Origin: Pisolithus tinctorius
Taxonomy: Eukaryota; Basidiomycota; Agaricomycetes; Boletales; Pisolithaceae
Direction of reading: 5' to 3'
Length of the DNA stretch: 64,000 nt
Assembly: GCA_024663395.1 (NCBI GenBank)
Contig: JANFAH010000004.1
Span: 1,054,001 to 1,118,000 of the forward strand
Of this stretch, positions 22,837 to 53,213 are shown piece after piece. How positions within the stretch are numbered: the stretch's first letter is position 1; every line of letters starts with the position of its first letter. The notes under the pieces are model-generated. The model was given only the letters and a program-made list of their open reading frames with translations. It was not told the DNA's origin and ran no database searches. Both the position numbers and the translations under genes were made by a program.

Positions 22837-25800
22837 ATGGAAGAACCTATGAATGACCAATTTTCCGTAGACAAAGCTTCGAAGCTTTTAGTACTGATGC
22901 CTGTCATGTTAGAAAACCCCACCCGTAAATGCCTTGTAACAGGAGGCTATGGATTTATAGTAAGTGCTGCCTTGCCCTTTTGTGGGATACTGCCGAACTT
23001 TTCATCCGATTTATTAGGGTTCTCACGTAGCGAAGGCCCTCTTCGAGCGTGGTCATTTCGTACGCATCGCTAGCGATACCTCTTCATCTCCCTTCGCAGA
23101 AAAAATCAGCACCGAGGTCCTTGTCGGGAACGTGTGTGACCCATCCTTTTGCGAGCGTGCCGTGAGAGGAATGGACACTGTCCTTCACTTCGCGGCCAAC
23201 ATGGGTGGCATGGGGGTCATCCACGAAGAGAATGAATTGATGATATATCGGGATAATCTGACTATGACGCATAACATGCTCTTTGCGTCTCGTCTCGCAG
23301 GTGTACGCTCCTTCTTCTATGCGTCCTCAGCTTGCGTGTACCCTGTATCCCTACAAGGGGATTCCCAAGCTGACGTTTTCCTGAAGGAAAGCGACACTTG
23401 GAAGGACTGCGCACCACCCAACCCCCAGGGTCTCTACGGTTTGGAGAAACTCTCCTCGGAGCTACTGCTGTTGCACGGCGGGGGAGACATGGATATTCGC
23501 ATTGCCCGTTTCCACAATGTGTATGGACCTCGTGGCGCGTGGATGGACGGCCGCGAGAAAGTTCCCGCTGCATTGATCCGAAAGGCACTCGCAGCAGCAG
23601 CGCTGCAGGAGGCCACTCTAACACTGGAAATTTGGGGGGACGGAAAACAGCGCCGCAGTTTCCTTTACATCGACGACTGTGTCGATGCAGTCCTGCTACT
23701 TCTTAATTCCTCGTGCAGGGACCCCCTCAACATCGGTTCAGACCGCTCCGTAACGATCGATTATCTGGCAGAAGTTGCGTGCTCATGCGCAGGACTGCAA
23801 ACGAAAGATGTCCGTTTTAATCATGTTGAAGCTTCTGGGCTGGTCGGTGTGTCGGCACGGAACTCAGACAACACGTCCATCCAGGGAACACTGGGGTGGT
23901 CTCCCAAGGTATCGTTGGAGGATGGGATTAAAAGGACCACCGAATGGATCAAGGATGAAATGCAGAAGATGTTTGTAGCTATCACTGATGAGGAACGCGC
24001 ACTTGCGCTGCGGAACCTTAAACGCAGTCGAGTACTCGCTTTATCATGCGGATACATCACATTTGCAGTCCTCCTTCCAATCACTTCCCGTGGTTCGGAA
24101 CCTCCGACTCGGTGCCTGTCCACGTTGAGTACATTTGCCGAATCACTTCAGAACACTACGTGGCGGGACACACATCAAATAGGTGGTCTCCGCTTCAAGG
24201 TCAAGGTCTATCTTGCCATCGATGAGGACGATCCAGTTCTCAGGAAATGTGACGACACCGGGGTCAACGTTGCTGAAGCCGTCCTTCTGTCGAAGAACAT
24301 CACTTCCGTTGCTATCGAGATATGCAACCAGCCGCCTGGCCACGTATGTGCTATCTGGCGCCAATGTGCAGAGCGGGCTATGAAGGATGGGTGCGATTAT
24401 TTTGTTCTGATGGGAGATGACGTTGTATTGGAGGACGAAGGCTGGATGCGAGTTGTGCATGCCGAGTTCCTCGAAATATCCAAACGTCAACACGTTCCCA
24501 ATGGTTTTGGCTGCGTCGCCTTCACTGACATCACGTTCCCCGGGTTTCCTACCTTCCCAATCATCCACCGCACCCACATGGACATTTTTTCCGGGCGTGT
24601 AGTTCCGGACAACTTCATTAATCAAGACGGAGATCCGTTCCTCTACCAGCTCTACCGTCGCTGGAACTGCTCTGCGATGGTTCCGTTACGGATTTCGAAT
24701 GTAATCGGCGGTGCCCGCCTAGCACGTTATGATAAACAACACGCTGATGGCTGGAGATTTGGGCCACTGGACAAGGCTACAGACGCCACTGAACGGTGGC
24801 TGCTACAGCACTGCCCAGTTGCCCCAAGGTTGTTGACGATTGACGTGGTCATTCCAAGCTATCGCGTACAACTCCCTTTTCTGGACCGCATACTTAGCCT
24901 TCAGTCGTCCTCGACATGTGTCGTGATGTTCATCATCATTGTCGACGATCCATGTGCATCGTCAATATGTGAATTGGAGAAGAAGTATGGCTACCGGCCG
25001 GACGTTTGTATCCGCGTCAATACCGAGAACTTGGGCGCCTCAGCCTCTCGCAACAGAGGCATGAAGGAGTCGGCCGCTGATTGGATCGTATTTCTCGACG
25101 ATGATGTACATCCGGATCCAAGCCTCCTTCAAGAAGCCGAAAGAGTTATTCGCGAGCACCCCAAAGCGGCTGGTTTTATAGGGTGTACACGCTTCCCGCC
25201 CGCGGAAACAATCTTCGAGACTGCCGTGCATCTGGCAGGGGTTTCGTATTTCTGGGATATCGCAGAGAAGATGGCAGGTGAAAGCGACATGCCATGGGGC
25301 GTAACCGCCAATATCATCGTACGCCGCGTCGAAGATGGGGTAGAGTTTGGATTACAGTTTCCGAAGACGGGTGGAGGTGAAGATATCGATTTCATTCGCC
25401 AGAAAAGGGAGTATTCGATTTCCCATGGAGGAGAGGGCTTCCATGCCGCCCCGAATGTTTTAGCCACTCACCCATGGTGGAACGGCGGGAAAAGGTCATA
25501 CTGGCGTTTTTACTGGTGGTCCAAAGGCGATGGTCAGCTTATCAAGATGTACCCTGATTTGACCTACATGGATCATGCTCCCAACAGCGCGGAGCTCCTC
25601 CTACTGAGCTTGGTACTGGCACTGGCCGGTTCGGTGGTATATGCTTTTGCTGGCGTCAATATACCGCTTATCCTCGGAATTCATCTTGCAGCAGCGACGT
25701 TCATAGGAAACATTGCGCACGACGTGTTTCGCCATCTTTGGAGAGACACAGCTCGCGCAGCTCGCCATAACTCCACGATCACTGGTTTAAAATGGCCCCT

Positions 25801-26017
25801 GGCGGTGCTTGAAAGCGCCATAATTAGGATGACGAGTGAGATGGGCCGCCAGGTCGGCCAGCTGGAGAGGAAAGAGTTTCTCCCTGGGAGACGCTTCGAA
25901 TGGTTCACACACAGAGCAGGGTCTGGGCCAAGAGATGAAGAGAGGTTGAATTCCAGGCAGAGATTTATCGTCGTAGTTGGTATTCTTGCCGTCAGTCTTG
26001 CTAGTGTGTATCAGTAA
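22837..26017 (+). CDS. GDP-mannose 3,5-epimerase fused to two glycosyltransferase-like domains and membrane segments
   Basis: Two exons, 22837-22959 and 23018-26017, join at TGGYGFI/GSHVAKAL and give about 1040 residues. Residues about 30-370 are an extended short-chain epimerase: Rossmann motif TGGYGFIGS, SSACVYP, catalytic YGLEK, RFHNVYGPRGAWMDGREKV, EIWGDGKQRRSFLYIDDCV, NIGSDRSV and ARNSDNTSIQGTLGWSP. These closely match plant-type GDP-mannose 3,5-epimerase, which makes GDP-L-galactose. A hydrophobic stretch near residue 380 follows. A region with a possible Asp motif (MGDDVVLEDEGW, about 505-518) comes next, then a GT2/GT-A fold domain (VVIPSYR about 650; LGASASRNRGM; FLDDDVHPD about 734). 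Hydrophobic helices lie near 895-935 and at the C-terminus. GT2 enzymes use nucleotide-sugars, so channelling of the epimerase product to a polysaccharide or glycolipid is my inference. The TAA overlaps a possible CA/GTAAGT donor, so a further exon cannot be excluded. Confidence 0.85.
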
Positions 26018-27642: not shown

Positions 27643-30600
27643 TTACAAGGAAACCTCGGTTGCCCTGCAACCCTTGCAGGCGCTCACCATGAAACAGGAA
27701 CCAGTACCGGTGAAGGTTTCCTGACTCAATCTGCTCTTCAACTTCTCCAACTGCTTGTTCCTGCAGACAAATCCTCGCTCGGTAGTGCATTGCGCATGGT
27801 CTTCAGCACAGGACATCAAAGGAACCGACTCGAAACCGTCCGGATTTTGGCTGGGTGAGCCACTACTGGACATGATGCACGACGCAATCGCAGTCGCACC
27901 TGGTGTCCACGAAAAAGGTATAAAATTTGACAGCTTTTGTAATTTCTGCAATGAAAATCGTGCCGAAAGCGGAGAAGGCATGATAGAAGGTAGCGATACT
28001 GAAGGAATTTGCTGCTGATGATAGCGATCACCACCACTAGGCTCGTAACTGGTCACCTCCGGCGTGGCGCTGCCACTTTCCGGGGGGCATCTGAAGGTGG
28101 ACACGACATCGTTGGCTGTGAAACGCGAGGAAGAAAATGAGTTAAGCGTACTCATGGATAATCTAGGCTGAGGCTTAGTCGAACCGTTTGGATTTCGGGA
28201 GAGATCTTTTGCAGTACGGACTACGGATGCTCTTGGTTTTGTCGGCGTAGACTGTGCGACAGCTGATGGCAAAGGTTTGGGTTGCGGTATGAAGGTTGAA
28301 ACATTGCCTCCTTTCTTGGATGGAGGAGTGATGAACGAACACCTAGGGAGGTTAGCTAGTGTCGAACGACCTGTCGGCGGCTTTGATGGTGTGAGCGGCG
28401 CTGATGGTGACTGAGTGAATGAACGAAGCGCAGTTGCACGCGGGATCGAAGACGGCGACATTGTAGTTCTGCTAGAGGGCCGGCTATCGCAACTAGCGCT
28501 GGGCTGCACAGGAGATGGAGTAGCAGGTGCCTCGGGTAGGGCGCGAACATCAACTGGAGGGAATTGGGAAATTGGTGGTTCCTGCTCTTCGTAAACGGGC
28601 ACAGGTTTTCTTGGCACTGAGTGAGATTCGGACTCAACTGGAGCTATGGTTGTGGTAGGTGGCGAAACACAAATTTGTGGTGGGGTGATGCAAATAGTAG
28701 GAGGTGGGTTGAAGATGAAGCGAATACCACCTTCGACTTCCTCGCCTACAAACTCGTCGTCTGTATCTTCCTCATCATCCTCATGCACCGTATCAAGGCT
28801 CCTCACATCAAGGCTCCTCACCAGAGCTGGCGGTTCAACCACGACGCCAATGTCAGCAGGCAAAACGAACGGTGGCATTTCATCCTCGTCATCCGCAGGA
28901 CAGAAGGCAGATGCAAATAAGCTCTTCGTCCTCTCTTCCGAACCAAGGTGAGGAGACATGTCAACGTCGTCCAGACAACCAAAGAAGTGGTCTACATCTT
29001 CCTTTTGCTCCGATGGAACAATGGCATGGCCTCTTGGGAAAGTCCACGTCTTAGAAAGCGTTGCGTGGCGGCCGTGAGCGGGGTTGTTGAGAGGTTTGGC
29101 AGCCTCACCTCCGCTCGCGACATCGAATTTGAGTACCATTTCCTCCGCCGAGCCAGCGGATGAACCACCCGGACTCTGGAAACTGAGATCTGAGTCGTCC
29201 TCGTCTTCATATCCAGCCAGGGCATCCACCTCTTCTTCGGAGAGATCCTCTTCAGCAACCACGTCCAAGGTCGAACCAGCCTTCATAAAGCTGTCATCTA
29301 GCGACTCGACCTCGGTGGAACTTTCGGAATCGATGGATTGGAAGCCGAATTCACGGGAACCGCCGAATCGTGAGGGCATGATTGACTTTATTCCAAAACC
29401 ATTCGTGAGACGAGGGACCGCAGGCGCGTTGAAAAGGCCAGCATCGTCCAAAAGGTGTTCTAACTCCTGCCTGCGTTCGCGTTCTTGCTCGAGAGCAGCG
29501 CGAAGTCGCGCACATTCGTCAACTGTCGCATCGGCATCCTGTAGGCGCTCTTTGAGTTTATTGACTTCTTCCTTGAGTTCGTCCCGTTCGCGTGTCAGCG
29601 CTGTCTTTTCAACCAAGGAGAGATCGAGAGCGGCAATTTTGTCTTCTATCGCCTTCTCAAGTTGCGTTTTTTCAACCTCGAGCAGACCAAGGCGGGAACG
29701 TGCAACCCAAGCATCCCGCCTCTCAACTTCAATGCGTTTAGCAAGCACACCCGCTCGTTCGTCAGCGTCAGAAACGCGCTTCCGCCAACCGTCTACGTCC
29801 CGCTTCAGCTCGTCGCGTTCAGCCTTCAAGTCAGAGATTAACTGAAGCATCTCGTCGCTAGGCTCAGAAGACCCCACAGAAACCTCTGAGGAATATGAAA
29901 GAGGGCGAGGGGTGTACAAGGACGATCTTTTGCGGAGGGTACGCTCCAGTTCGGTGATGCGGGTCAAGAGCACGTTGTGAGACCTAAATAAAAAATGCTG
30001 CTCCGCTACTGTAAGAGGCTTCTCGACGGCAAGAGACTGGTCACTCGAAATAGAAAAGTGACGGTCAGATGTGGGGGTCATTTCAGGCGACGGCAATGTT
30101 ACCACATCCCGTGGTGTCGAGTCCACCGAACGCTTGTAGGAAATGCTGCTACGCCGCTTGATGACGTTAGAGGTGTTGGTCAGAGAGTGCCTCTTGCTGA
30201 ATGAACGGGGAACGGCCGACGGATGACCTATTGAATCGGTCTCGCTCGTCGTAATATCAGGCGATAACGTAAGAGCTCTCAAACCGGCGCGAGGGCTGGG
30301 GGTAGTTGAGGGAGTCGGCAAGCCACCGGAAGTAACCACCGCAATGCCGCTGACGAGGGAGAGCGGACGCAGATTGAGGCTGGTAGGGCGTGGACGGGAG
30401 GGTTTAGCATGCTCTACTGAATGGACAGGTGGGGATGTCTCCTTTGGCTGTTCTGGAAATGTATCGTTTTGCTCCTCTAACTCCTCTTCCTCTTCTTCTT
30501 CCTCAATGAGGGTGTGGAGCTGGTCCTTTGCAACCGAGGACACAAACATCTTACCAGAGTCGCGCTTTCCCATGAGACCAGTAACGCCAAGGTTGTTGAT

Positions 30601-51423: not shown

Positions 51424-52904
51424 TCAAGATGTAATCGCGAAACTTTCCCATTGTTCCCCACTTGTAATCCACCCTGCGAATGCGCACCCTTCCGCTTGAA
51501 GGCATCGCCTTGCCGCTTGATAATGTGAAACGGCTTGCTTTATTTCAAAATATGTGCGTAGATCGCTGCGAGACTTCTAGACCCCAGAAAGAACAGCATT
51601 CTCGGGACTCACCTTCTTGCATCCACTCCCAAAGTAACTAGAGTATCATGATACATATGCAACATCGATATTTTGGAAACTCGTGGCCTGTGTGAGGAGT
51701 GAGGAAGACGATACGACAACTCATGCGAGAAAGTAACCTGAACATGCTTTTGAATCGATGCTTGGGCGGAACACCACGTTTGAGTCCATTGATCAGTACC
51801 TCGTGCGTAGGAGAGTCCGAAATCCAGCACAGAGCTACCCAATCAACGTGTTAGCACACCCAGTGAAGTGGGACGATGGGAGCGAATGTTACACTCATTG
51901 GAGGAACGGCAGTCACCATCCTTCATCGCCGACGCGACCGCGACCTTTGAGAACGGAAATAGCACCGAAGTAAAGGCAATCACAGGCCGATGGATCTGGA
52001 AGCCTCGAGGTAAATCTTGTTTTATTCGATTAGTAAGGGGTTGGGAGAGAATGCCATATCGTGTTATTGATATCTTGATATCGAAGGAGTACTTACTAGA
52101 TACGTCTAGACGTCCCCAGAAAGCTCGTTCACAATCGATTTTCACATCCCCACGGATGTCCTCGTTTACTTCACCAATGATGATCCGAGAAAGGTACACC
52201 GGATGTAAGAAAGCAGAGCCAAGGGCACCTTGAATACCAAGAACATTCCACCGCGCGATTTTATCGCTACATGACATCGATAGCGTCGCTGGGGAATCAG
52301 CACGGCCGGGTTTGGTCCTCAACACCCCAAAAAGAGCATAATTGTTGCGGCCCCTCGAAACCGCACTGGGAGGCAAGGCCTCAGGGACGACCGAGTTCTT
52401 GAGCTGAGCCATTTCATCATTCTGGAAGGATGCGAGAAAACGCATTGAAGCATCTCCACCTTTTTGTGCAGAGTTATCGTAACTTCAGAGCGCAGAAAGG
52501 GTGATGGTAGGGCGCGATACCTTACAGGGAGGAGTGGATATATACATGATCACCTGAACACCTTCTTTGACTCGAAACTTTCCGTCACTTTCATCTTTGG
52601 CAAGCCACTGGGACGATCCTCCAGATGTGACATACCGCTGGATTTCCTCGAGGAACCAGCGGCGCGCGCACCGACGAGCAAGGACTTCTGCATGGGAATC
52701 GTGAAGGGCATCACCTTTCTCCGGAAGTCGGTTCTTTGGAAGACATTTACAACCTGTAGCGAGTCCAATTATCTTCGTCTCGCCAAGATAAGATAGGGCG
52801 ATAGCGGCCAAAATAGTATAAGTTCCGTGGTGCGGGGTCACGCTTAAAGAGAGATATTTCTTCAAGACGTCTTGTACAAAAGCCGAGTCTTCATCTGTAG
52901 TCAT
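51424..52904 (-). CDS. TAD1: tRNA-specific adenosine deaminase TAD1/ADAT1
   Basis: Converts A37 to inosine in tRNA-Ala in yeast. The A-to-I editase catalytic set is complete: [14 protein letters not shown] (His and Glu), then STPPC/GDASM split by an intron that starts GTAAGG, then [20 protein letters not shown] (second Zn Cys). Further exons: [63 protein letters not shown] and a final exon [20 protein letters not shown] ... [11 protein letters not shown]. The start is placed at [13 protein letters not shown]; an in-frame ATG at 53078 would add 58 residues not expected in the family. Convergent with GPC1, 249 bp between stops. Confidence 0.92.
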
Positions 52905-53213
52905 GTATTTGTGACTCCGTGAAAATTTCCCGGCGCACGGATAGGTGGTCACTCGGAGCTTAGGAAGTGGTCGTAAGATTTCGAGAGGTGGCCCCACATC
53001 GTTCCTACTCCAAATACATGCAAACACATATCCATCACCCCACATCGCGAGCCCCAGAGTTTGTGGTGCTAAACGCAAAACATGCTGTGCGTAGTGATGG
53101 AGTTCGTGACGACATCATTGGAGATGGAGCATTTTAAGCCGTTATAAGAGCCCTCTCTCCACGCATCAGGAAAACACTATTCATTCACTGTCTAAAGTTC
53201 AGGCAAAGAAACC
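52905..53213. promoter_or_regulatory. Divergent promoter between TAD1 and the CON-6-like gene
   Basis: About 310 bp between start codons. If TAD1 used the upstream ATG at 53078, only 135 bp would remain. No recognised element was found. Confidence 0.4.

Follow-up and report, generated by a model that had tools for sequence, protein, structure and literature searches.

In Pisolithus tinctorius a single gene joins a predicted GDP-mannose 3,5-epimerase (GME) to two glycosyltransferase domains, and we lean towards reading its predicted product as a membrane-attached, self-supplying glycosyltransferase that would make GDP-L-galactose and use it through an attached glycosyltransferase domain. The gene occupies 22837..26017 of the window, by which we mean the whole 64,000-nucleotide stretch analysed (contig JANFAH010000004.1, here C4, positions 1,054,001 to 1,118,000 of the forward strand), and was pointed out in an earlier note made from the DNA letters. 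From left to right it encodes the GME domain, a middle domain (MID), a domain of glycosyltransferase family 2 (GT2) and a set of C-terminal helices. As judged from sequence, these are known parts (GME and GT2) in an apparently undescribed arrangement, and one of the two glycosyltransferase domains has no Pfam family.

The reading frame opens with the ATG at 22837 and encodes 1040 amino acids in two exons. Exon 1 (22837..22959, + strand) carries the start codon and the NAD-binding glycine motif TGGYGFI(G) within residues 1-41; because the 58-base intron (22960..23017, +, GTAAGT...TAG) cuts this motif between GFI and G, exon 1 is required for the GME domain. Met21, at 22897, is a possible later start, and homolog P0001 begins at that position. 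Exon 2 (23018..26017, +) has 999 open codons and a TAA stop, and contains the rest of the GME domain, MID, the GT2 domain and the C-terminal helices, with all domain borders inside it. Both the single frame of about 1040 residues and the intronless 3-kb second exon of the earlier note are thus borne out, and the domains share one exon.

The gene is present twice in the 92.5-Mb assembly, on contigs C4 and C90, and the two copies, with 99% protein identity, are probably haplotypes; beyond these, the assembly has just two short matches to the fusion gene, at 32% identity. The second copy keeps the start, the frame and identical intron borders (6 differences in the 58 intron bases), with 42 codons silently different, 12 residue-changing differences, and 9 bases absent across codons 952-955 with the frame intact. 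A rough count between the copies gives pS 0.058 and pN 0.0050 (ratio 0.087), and the fusion gene, with one intact copy per contig, is by its sequence under purifying selection. P0001 differs from the window protein at 8 positions over 1020 aa, and its frame crosses the splice point without an intron, where the genomic intron carries stops in that frame; its longest contig measures 4380 bases, and it probably comes from a cDNA assembly, the alternative being an intron-aware gene call.

The GME domain (exon 2 part 23018..23974, +) matches Pfam Epimerase PF01370 (E 1.8e-34); among PDB sequences plant GMEs match best (3.2e-70) with GalE as the next family (1.4e-19), and the nearest solved structures by fold are also GMEs. 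Residues of the 1040-aa protein were mapped onto Arabidopsis GME, and conservation was counted in the best 120 of 348 homologs from a search with the exon-2 protein. The triad of the short-chain dehydrogenases/reductases (SDRs) is kept as S145 in 117 homologs (T in 3) and as Y181 and K185 in all 120, and H207 is present in the window protein. The GME active-site set described in the excerpt of PMC8787198, consisting of a Cys/Lys pair, a Cys-acidifying Arg, Arg243 and Asn203, corresponds to C147 and K222 (each in 119), R322 (119), R254 (120) and N208 (119). The window protein also has GxxGxxG, whose glycines are seen in 67, 66 and 77 of the 120, most of the others being N-terminally gapped. It is very likely, on sequence grounds, that the domain has GME chemistry, and the claim of a complete active site stands with the conserved residues and the PDB and fold matches. 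Its description as plant-type is right for residues and fold and wrong for descent: in an unrooted tree using 26 of 80 fetched loci, the fungal rows and P0221, which has a long branch, are on one side (100/98), and the 2 plant and 26 bacterial/archaeal rows are opposite.

Between the Epimerase and GT2 domains there is no Pfam match, even at E 1. A structure model built on 23975-24847 predicts that MID (24059..24811, +) has a GT-A glycosyltransferase fold, in agreement with the possible Asp-motif glycosyltransferase region of the earlier note; a different kind of fold in this region would, by that note, have counted as a refutation. Its GDD motif (24416..24421, +) is a candidate DXD-like metal site, with D508 and D509 being Asp in 115 and 119 of the 120 homologs, and four counted positions of an NQDGD motif (N576-D580, 24620..24634, +) are kept in 117-119. 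The hydrophobic segment that had been noted between the domains (residues about 380-398, TFAVLLPITSRG) contains strand beta-1 of the GT-A domain in the predicted model, and the hydropathy peak here (19-residue mean of at least 1.6) is absent in all 12 relatives scanned; a membrane anchor between the domains is rejected on these two counts. A MID profile had six weak matches among PDB sequences, the best a hemocyanin (E 0.0024) and none a glycosyltransferase, and neither 19 pattern matches in bacterial/archaeal genome contigs nor 76 matches of the fungal profile in viral contigs included a relative.

A few observations on MID stand apart. The model resembles predicted proteins of Chrysochromulina ericina virus (E 5.8e-15, TMq 0.63, 20% identity) and Cafeteria roenbergensis virus (1.2e-12, TMq 0.65), both better than the solved structures among the matches listed (TMq at most 0.50). 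An IMG/VR contig (L081:7992-8729) encodes a stand-alone MID-type glycosyltransferase amid matches to terminase, portal, minor head and major head proteins, with a gene near by that matches a PHROG called nucleotide-sugar epimerase. A 144-aa protein labelled as from the liverwort Calypogeia fissa (P0136) has 52% identity to MID over 53% of it, and is either contamination from a symbiotic fungus or a genuine plant gene.

An acidic metal motif together with an ED motif is typical of GT2 enzymes, and both are found in the GT2 domain (24830..25567, +) in 120 of 120 homologs: DDD at D735-D737 (25097..25105, +) and ED at E829-D830 (within GGGED, 25379..25384, +). The Pfam match to Glycos_transf_2 (PF00535, E 3.1e-13) scores 50.4 bits against a gathering cut-off of 23.3. 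Because the matches listed in full-length fold searches were all GME and other SDRs, the GT2 fold rests on Pfam, the motifs and the model; no close solved relative was found by sequence. To the right is a helical, partly hydrophobic region (25580..26014, +), a likely membrane anchor, with four long helices in the model (exon-2 residues 857-878, 882-909, 925-950 and 970-998) and hydropathy peaks at protein residues 901-941. Similar C-terminal peaks are present in 11 of the 12 relatives scanned, the twelfth, P0152 from EukProt, being a related fragment that ends earlier. The GT2-like domain with DDD motif and C-terminal helices described before is therefore recovered. GDP-mannose synthesis is cytosolic, so the simplest reading is that the C-terminus would anchor the protein to a membrane with its catalytic domains cytosolic.

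The fusion is not peculiar to this fungus. All but one of the best 120 homologs align over 88-100% of the query in a single BLASTP alignment (P0102 over 45%), with identities among the matches listed of 84% for Pisolithus sp. B1 and 81% for P. marmoratus. Those named by organism are, we assume, Agaricomycetes, and for Tulasnella, Rickenella and, from the second search described next, Hysterangium a taxonomy look-up confirmed this; among the matches listed their database names are generic (glycosyltransferase family 2, NAD-dependent epimerase/dehydratase, hypothetical protein). A second search with a distant two-domain relative (best 120 of 289 hits) includes, among the matches listed, GME-fused proteins in Funneliformis, a glomeromycote by look-up, and in Glomus and Acaulospora, which we take to be Glomeromycota. 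The EukProt record P0221, with transcript-style naming, has a complete 1007-aa frame in the same GME-MID-GT2 order. Custom profiles applied to the 269 proteins collected find all three domains in this order in 165, MID alone in 53, MID and GT2 without GME in 47, and GME and MID in 4. The recurring domain order that the earlier note proposed to look for is thus, by sequence, common among Agaricomycetes and also found in Glomeromycota.

Counting only proteins of 600 aa or longer, MID and GT2 occur without GME in 24, mostly from metagenome assemblies. At every counted position except R871 of the GT2 domain, which is His in 12, the MID and GT2 motif residues are retained by 21-24 of the 24. One such two-domain protein, P0208, is labelled as from a Verrucomicrobiota bacterium metagenome-assembled genome, and either was binned wrongly or is truly bacterial. 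In two metagenomic proteins the N-terminal partner of MID-GT2 is a GT8 domain (PF01501, in P0233) or a methyltransferase domain (PF13578, in P0214). Because GME-less, GT8 and methyltransferase forms exist, the glycosyltransferase pair looks, by sequence, like a unit that takes different partners. A MID+GT2 tree was built from the window protein, all 24 of these GME-less proteins and 20 of the 165 fused ones. In it the fused rows do not form a single clade (approximately unbiased test, AU, p 2.5e-26) and P0221 lies apart from the fungi; several GME-less rows fall within the Agaricomycete part, where they may be gene calls cut at introns, and an outer group of eight does not. On whether the fusion happened once or repeatedly, the AU result speaks against a simple scenario of just one fusion and no later loss, as far as these sequences go.

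In the mechanism that we propose, the N-terminal domain would convert cytosolic GDP-D-mannose to GDP-L-galactose and some GDP-L-gulose: bound NAD+ together with Tyr181/Lys185 would oxidise C4, Cys147/Lys222 would epimerise C5 and C3, and re-reduction would follow. One GT-A domain, MID or GT2, would pass the L-sugar to an acceptor at the cytosolic face of the membrane to which the protein would be tethered by its C-terminal helices, and the other would add a partner sugar; between them the two would assemble a disaccharide, or a repeat, belonging to a polysaccharide of the wall or to a glycolipid. The proposal draws on the domain order, the GME fingerprint, the MID fold, the GT2 match and conservation, and from these we infer enzyme activity, a glycosyltransferase using GDP-L-galactose, membrane attachment, acceptor and product. 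That the attached domains use the product of the GME domain is a step we hold with only a little more belief than doubt. A more far-reaching version, which we put forward tentatively and think rather doubtful, is that MID represents an undescribed glycosyltransferase family forming an old two-headed synthase with GT2, by which mushrooms and arbuscular mycorrhizal fungi would make an L-galactose polymer or glycolipid, a wall component unknown in fungi, from their own GDP-L-galactose; this version takes in the relatives of MID, by sequence in fungi, in other eukaryotes and on a phage contig, by fold in giant viruses.

Several points weigh against a self-supplying enzyme. In a small number of fused homologs a catalytic residue is missing (e.g. 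Cys147 is Ser in 1 of 120), the MID fold matches are tied between UDP- and GDP-sugar enzymes and include two pyrophosphorylases within the 50 best Foldseek rows, and the donor of MID-GT2 need not be GDP-L-galactose in all lineages because the pair occurs without GME. The product could instead be GDP-L-gulose or GDP-D-altrose, and the parts of the literature searched hold no report of L-galactose in a mushroom glycan. If the GME were active but released its GDP-L-galactose to other enzymes, the attached glycosyltransferases would use UDP-sugars or GDP-mannose and the fusion would serve localisation or joint regulation. We think this unlikely; the occurrence of MID-GT2 without GME, or with GT8 or a methyltransferase, speaks for it, whereas 165 of the 269 proteins retain the GME-MID-GT2 order and a GT8 partner likewise acts on sugars, consistent with joint work on one glycan. 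Somewhat less probable again is an epimerase that takes another GDP-sugar or mainly makes another product, with that sugar in the glycan: GDP-L-gulose and GDP-D-altrose are by-products of known GMEs in the excerpt of PMC8787198, and the fungal domains occupy a separate side of the GME tree, but the tested GME catalytic residues are kept and the nearest solved structures are GMEs.

It is very improbable that the domain is a GDP-L-fucose synthase-like epimerase/reductase feeding fucosylation. The best NCBIfam match by score is indeed to such a synthase (NF047922), and the MID fold resembles a fucosyltransferase; however, the 86.5 bits obtained are far below the curated cut-off of 500, and the domain has a Lys222 base and Arg322, not the His base and Cys-acidifying Lys of GDP-fucose synthase (PMC8787198, excerpt). 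GDP-mannose 4,6-dehydratase also sits elsewhere (exons at G000:C14:1227077-1229796), with a weak GDP-fucose-synthase-like exon beyond it on the other strand, and to judge from sequence these are possibly the fungus's GDP-fucose pair; on score, residues and this separate locus a GDP-fucose synthase identity is rejected. A gene-model or assembly artefact merging separate genes is scarcely credible, given the uninterrupted 3-kb exon, the copy on another contig, the intron-free P0001 and the transcript-style P0221; and because the second copy keeps its frame and 165 of the 269 fetched homologs have the three domains in order, chance is excluded. The earlier note had excluded a splicing artefact from the exon. 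Of that note's overall interpretation, a GME with full active site, two GT-A-type domains and a hydrophobic C-terminus in one polypeptide remain; the hydrophobic inter-domain segment is reread as a beta strand, and 'plant-type' does not extend to descent.

GDP-L-galactose is known above all as a branch point of plant vitamin C synthesis and in some algal and plant glycans, and wall analyses seldom separate D- from L-galactose. The conserved domain order suggests a fungal glycan that contains an L-sugar, and we found no description of one; if this is true, such a glycan is made by mushrooms and arbuscular mycorrhizal fungi and has been overlooked in wall analyses, and MID, as modelled, would be an additional glycosyltransferase domain without a Pfam entry. 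No fungal GME-glycosyltransferase fusion was found described in the titles and abstract beginnings of open-licence literature. A term search of the main text of a fungal nucleotide-sugar survey of 491 taxa (PMC8092308) gave no GME, GDP-L-Gal or L-galactose, and the excerpts of PMC8787198 and PMC6678494 contain no word starting 'fung'; a table excerpted from PMC3220709 counts 2 fungal GME homologs, which the excerpt does not take up further, and PMC6298397, from its excerpt, concerns a different 3,5-epimerase.

Among the 73 stop-to-stop open reading frames (ORFs) of at least 130 aa in the window, 20 neighbours were scanned with Pfam, and none of these is a sugar-nucleotide or glycosyltransferase gene, so a biosynthetic gene cluster is rejected on this partial evidence. 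The matches are to a fungal transcription factor domain, TPR, Fe/Mn-SOD, hexokinase, Aft1-type, HODM-like, adenosine deaminase, COX15 and DUF6741, and the rest have none. Adjoining the fusion gene is a 976-codon open frame without a Pfam match (27643-30573, minus strand), and two ORFs matching the adenosine-deaminase (editase) domain at 51846-53114 (minus strand) are probably one intron-split gene. Some 16 kb before the window begins, an SDR exon (G000:C4:1037956-1038321) has 32% identity to part of the GME domain, and is presumably a UDP-glucuronate decarboxylase.

Comparison with known systems places each part of the fusion. MID resembles in fold the fucosyltransferase WrtF, solved with GDP-beta-L-fucose, at 11% identity and tied with GalNAc-transferases and others, and does not match it by sequence. 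The GT2 domain resembles the GT2 family (PF00535, e.g. TarS and TarP) in its over-cut-off Pfam match and its DDD and ED motifs, and in the two-domain relative P0198 the GT2 part has weak sequence matches to TarP (E 2.2e-4) and TarS (2.4e-4); what sets the fungal GT2 apart is its tandem pairing with MID and its fusion to GME. The two-domain proteins P0197-P0213 have MID and GT2 like the window protein, and the C-terminal region in 12 of 17, but no GME. Finally, GME is known from plants (Arabidopsis, 2c59) and bacteria (Methylacidiphilum GM35E); whereas the solved plant chains are single-domain proteins of 379 and 409 residues, the fungal domain, set apart in the unrooted tree from plants and bacteria, is fused to two glycosyltransferase domains.
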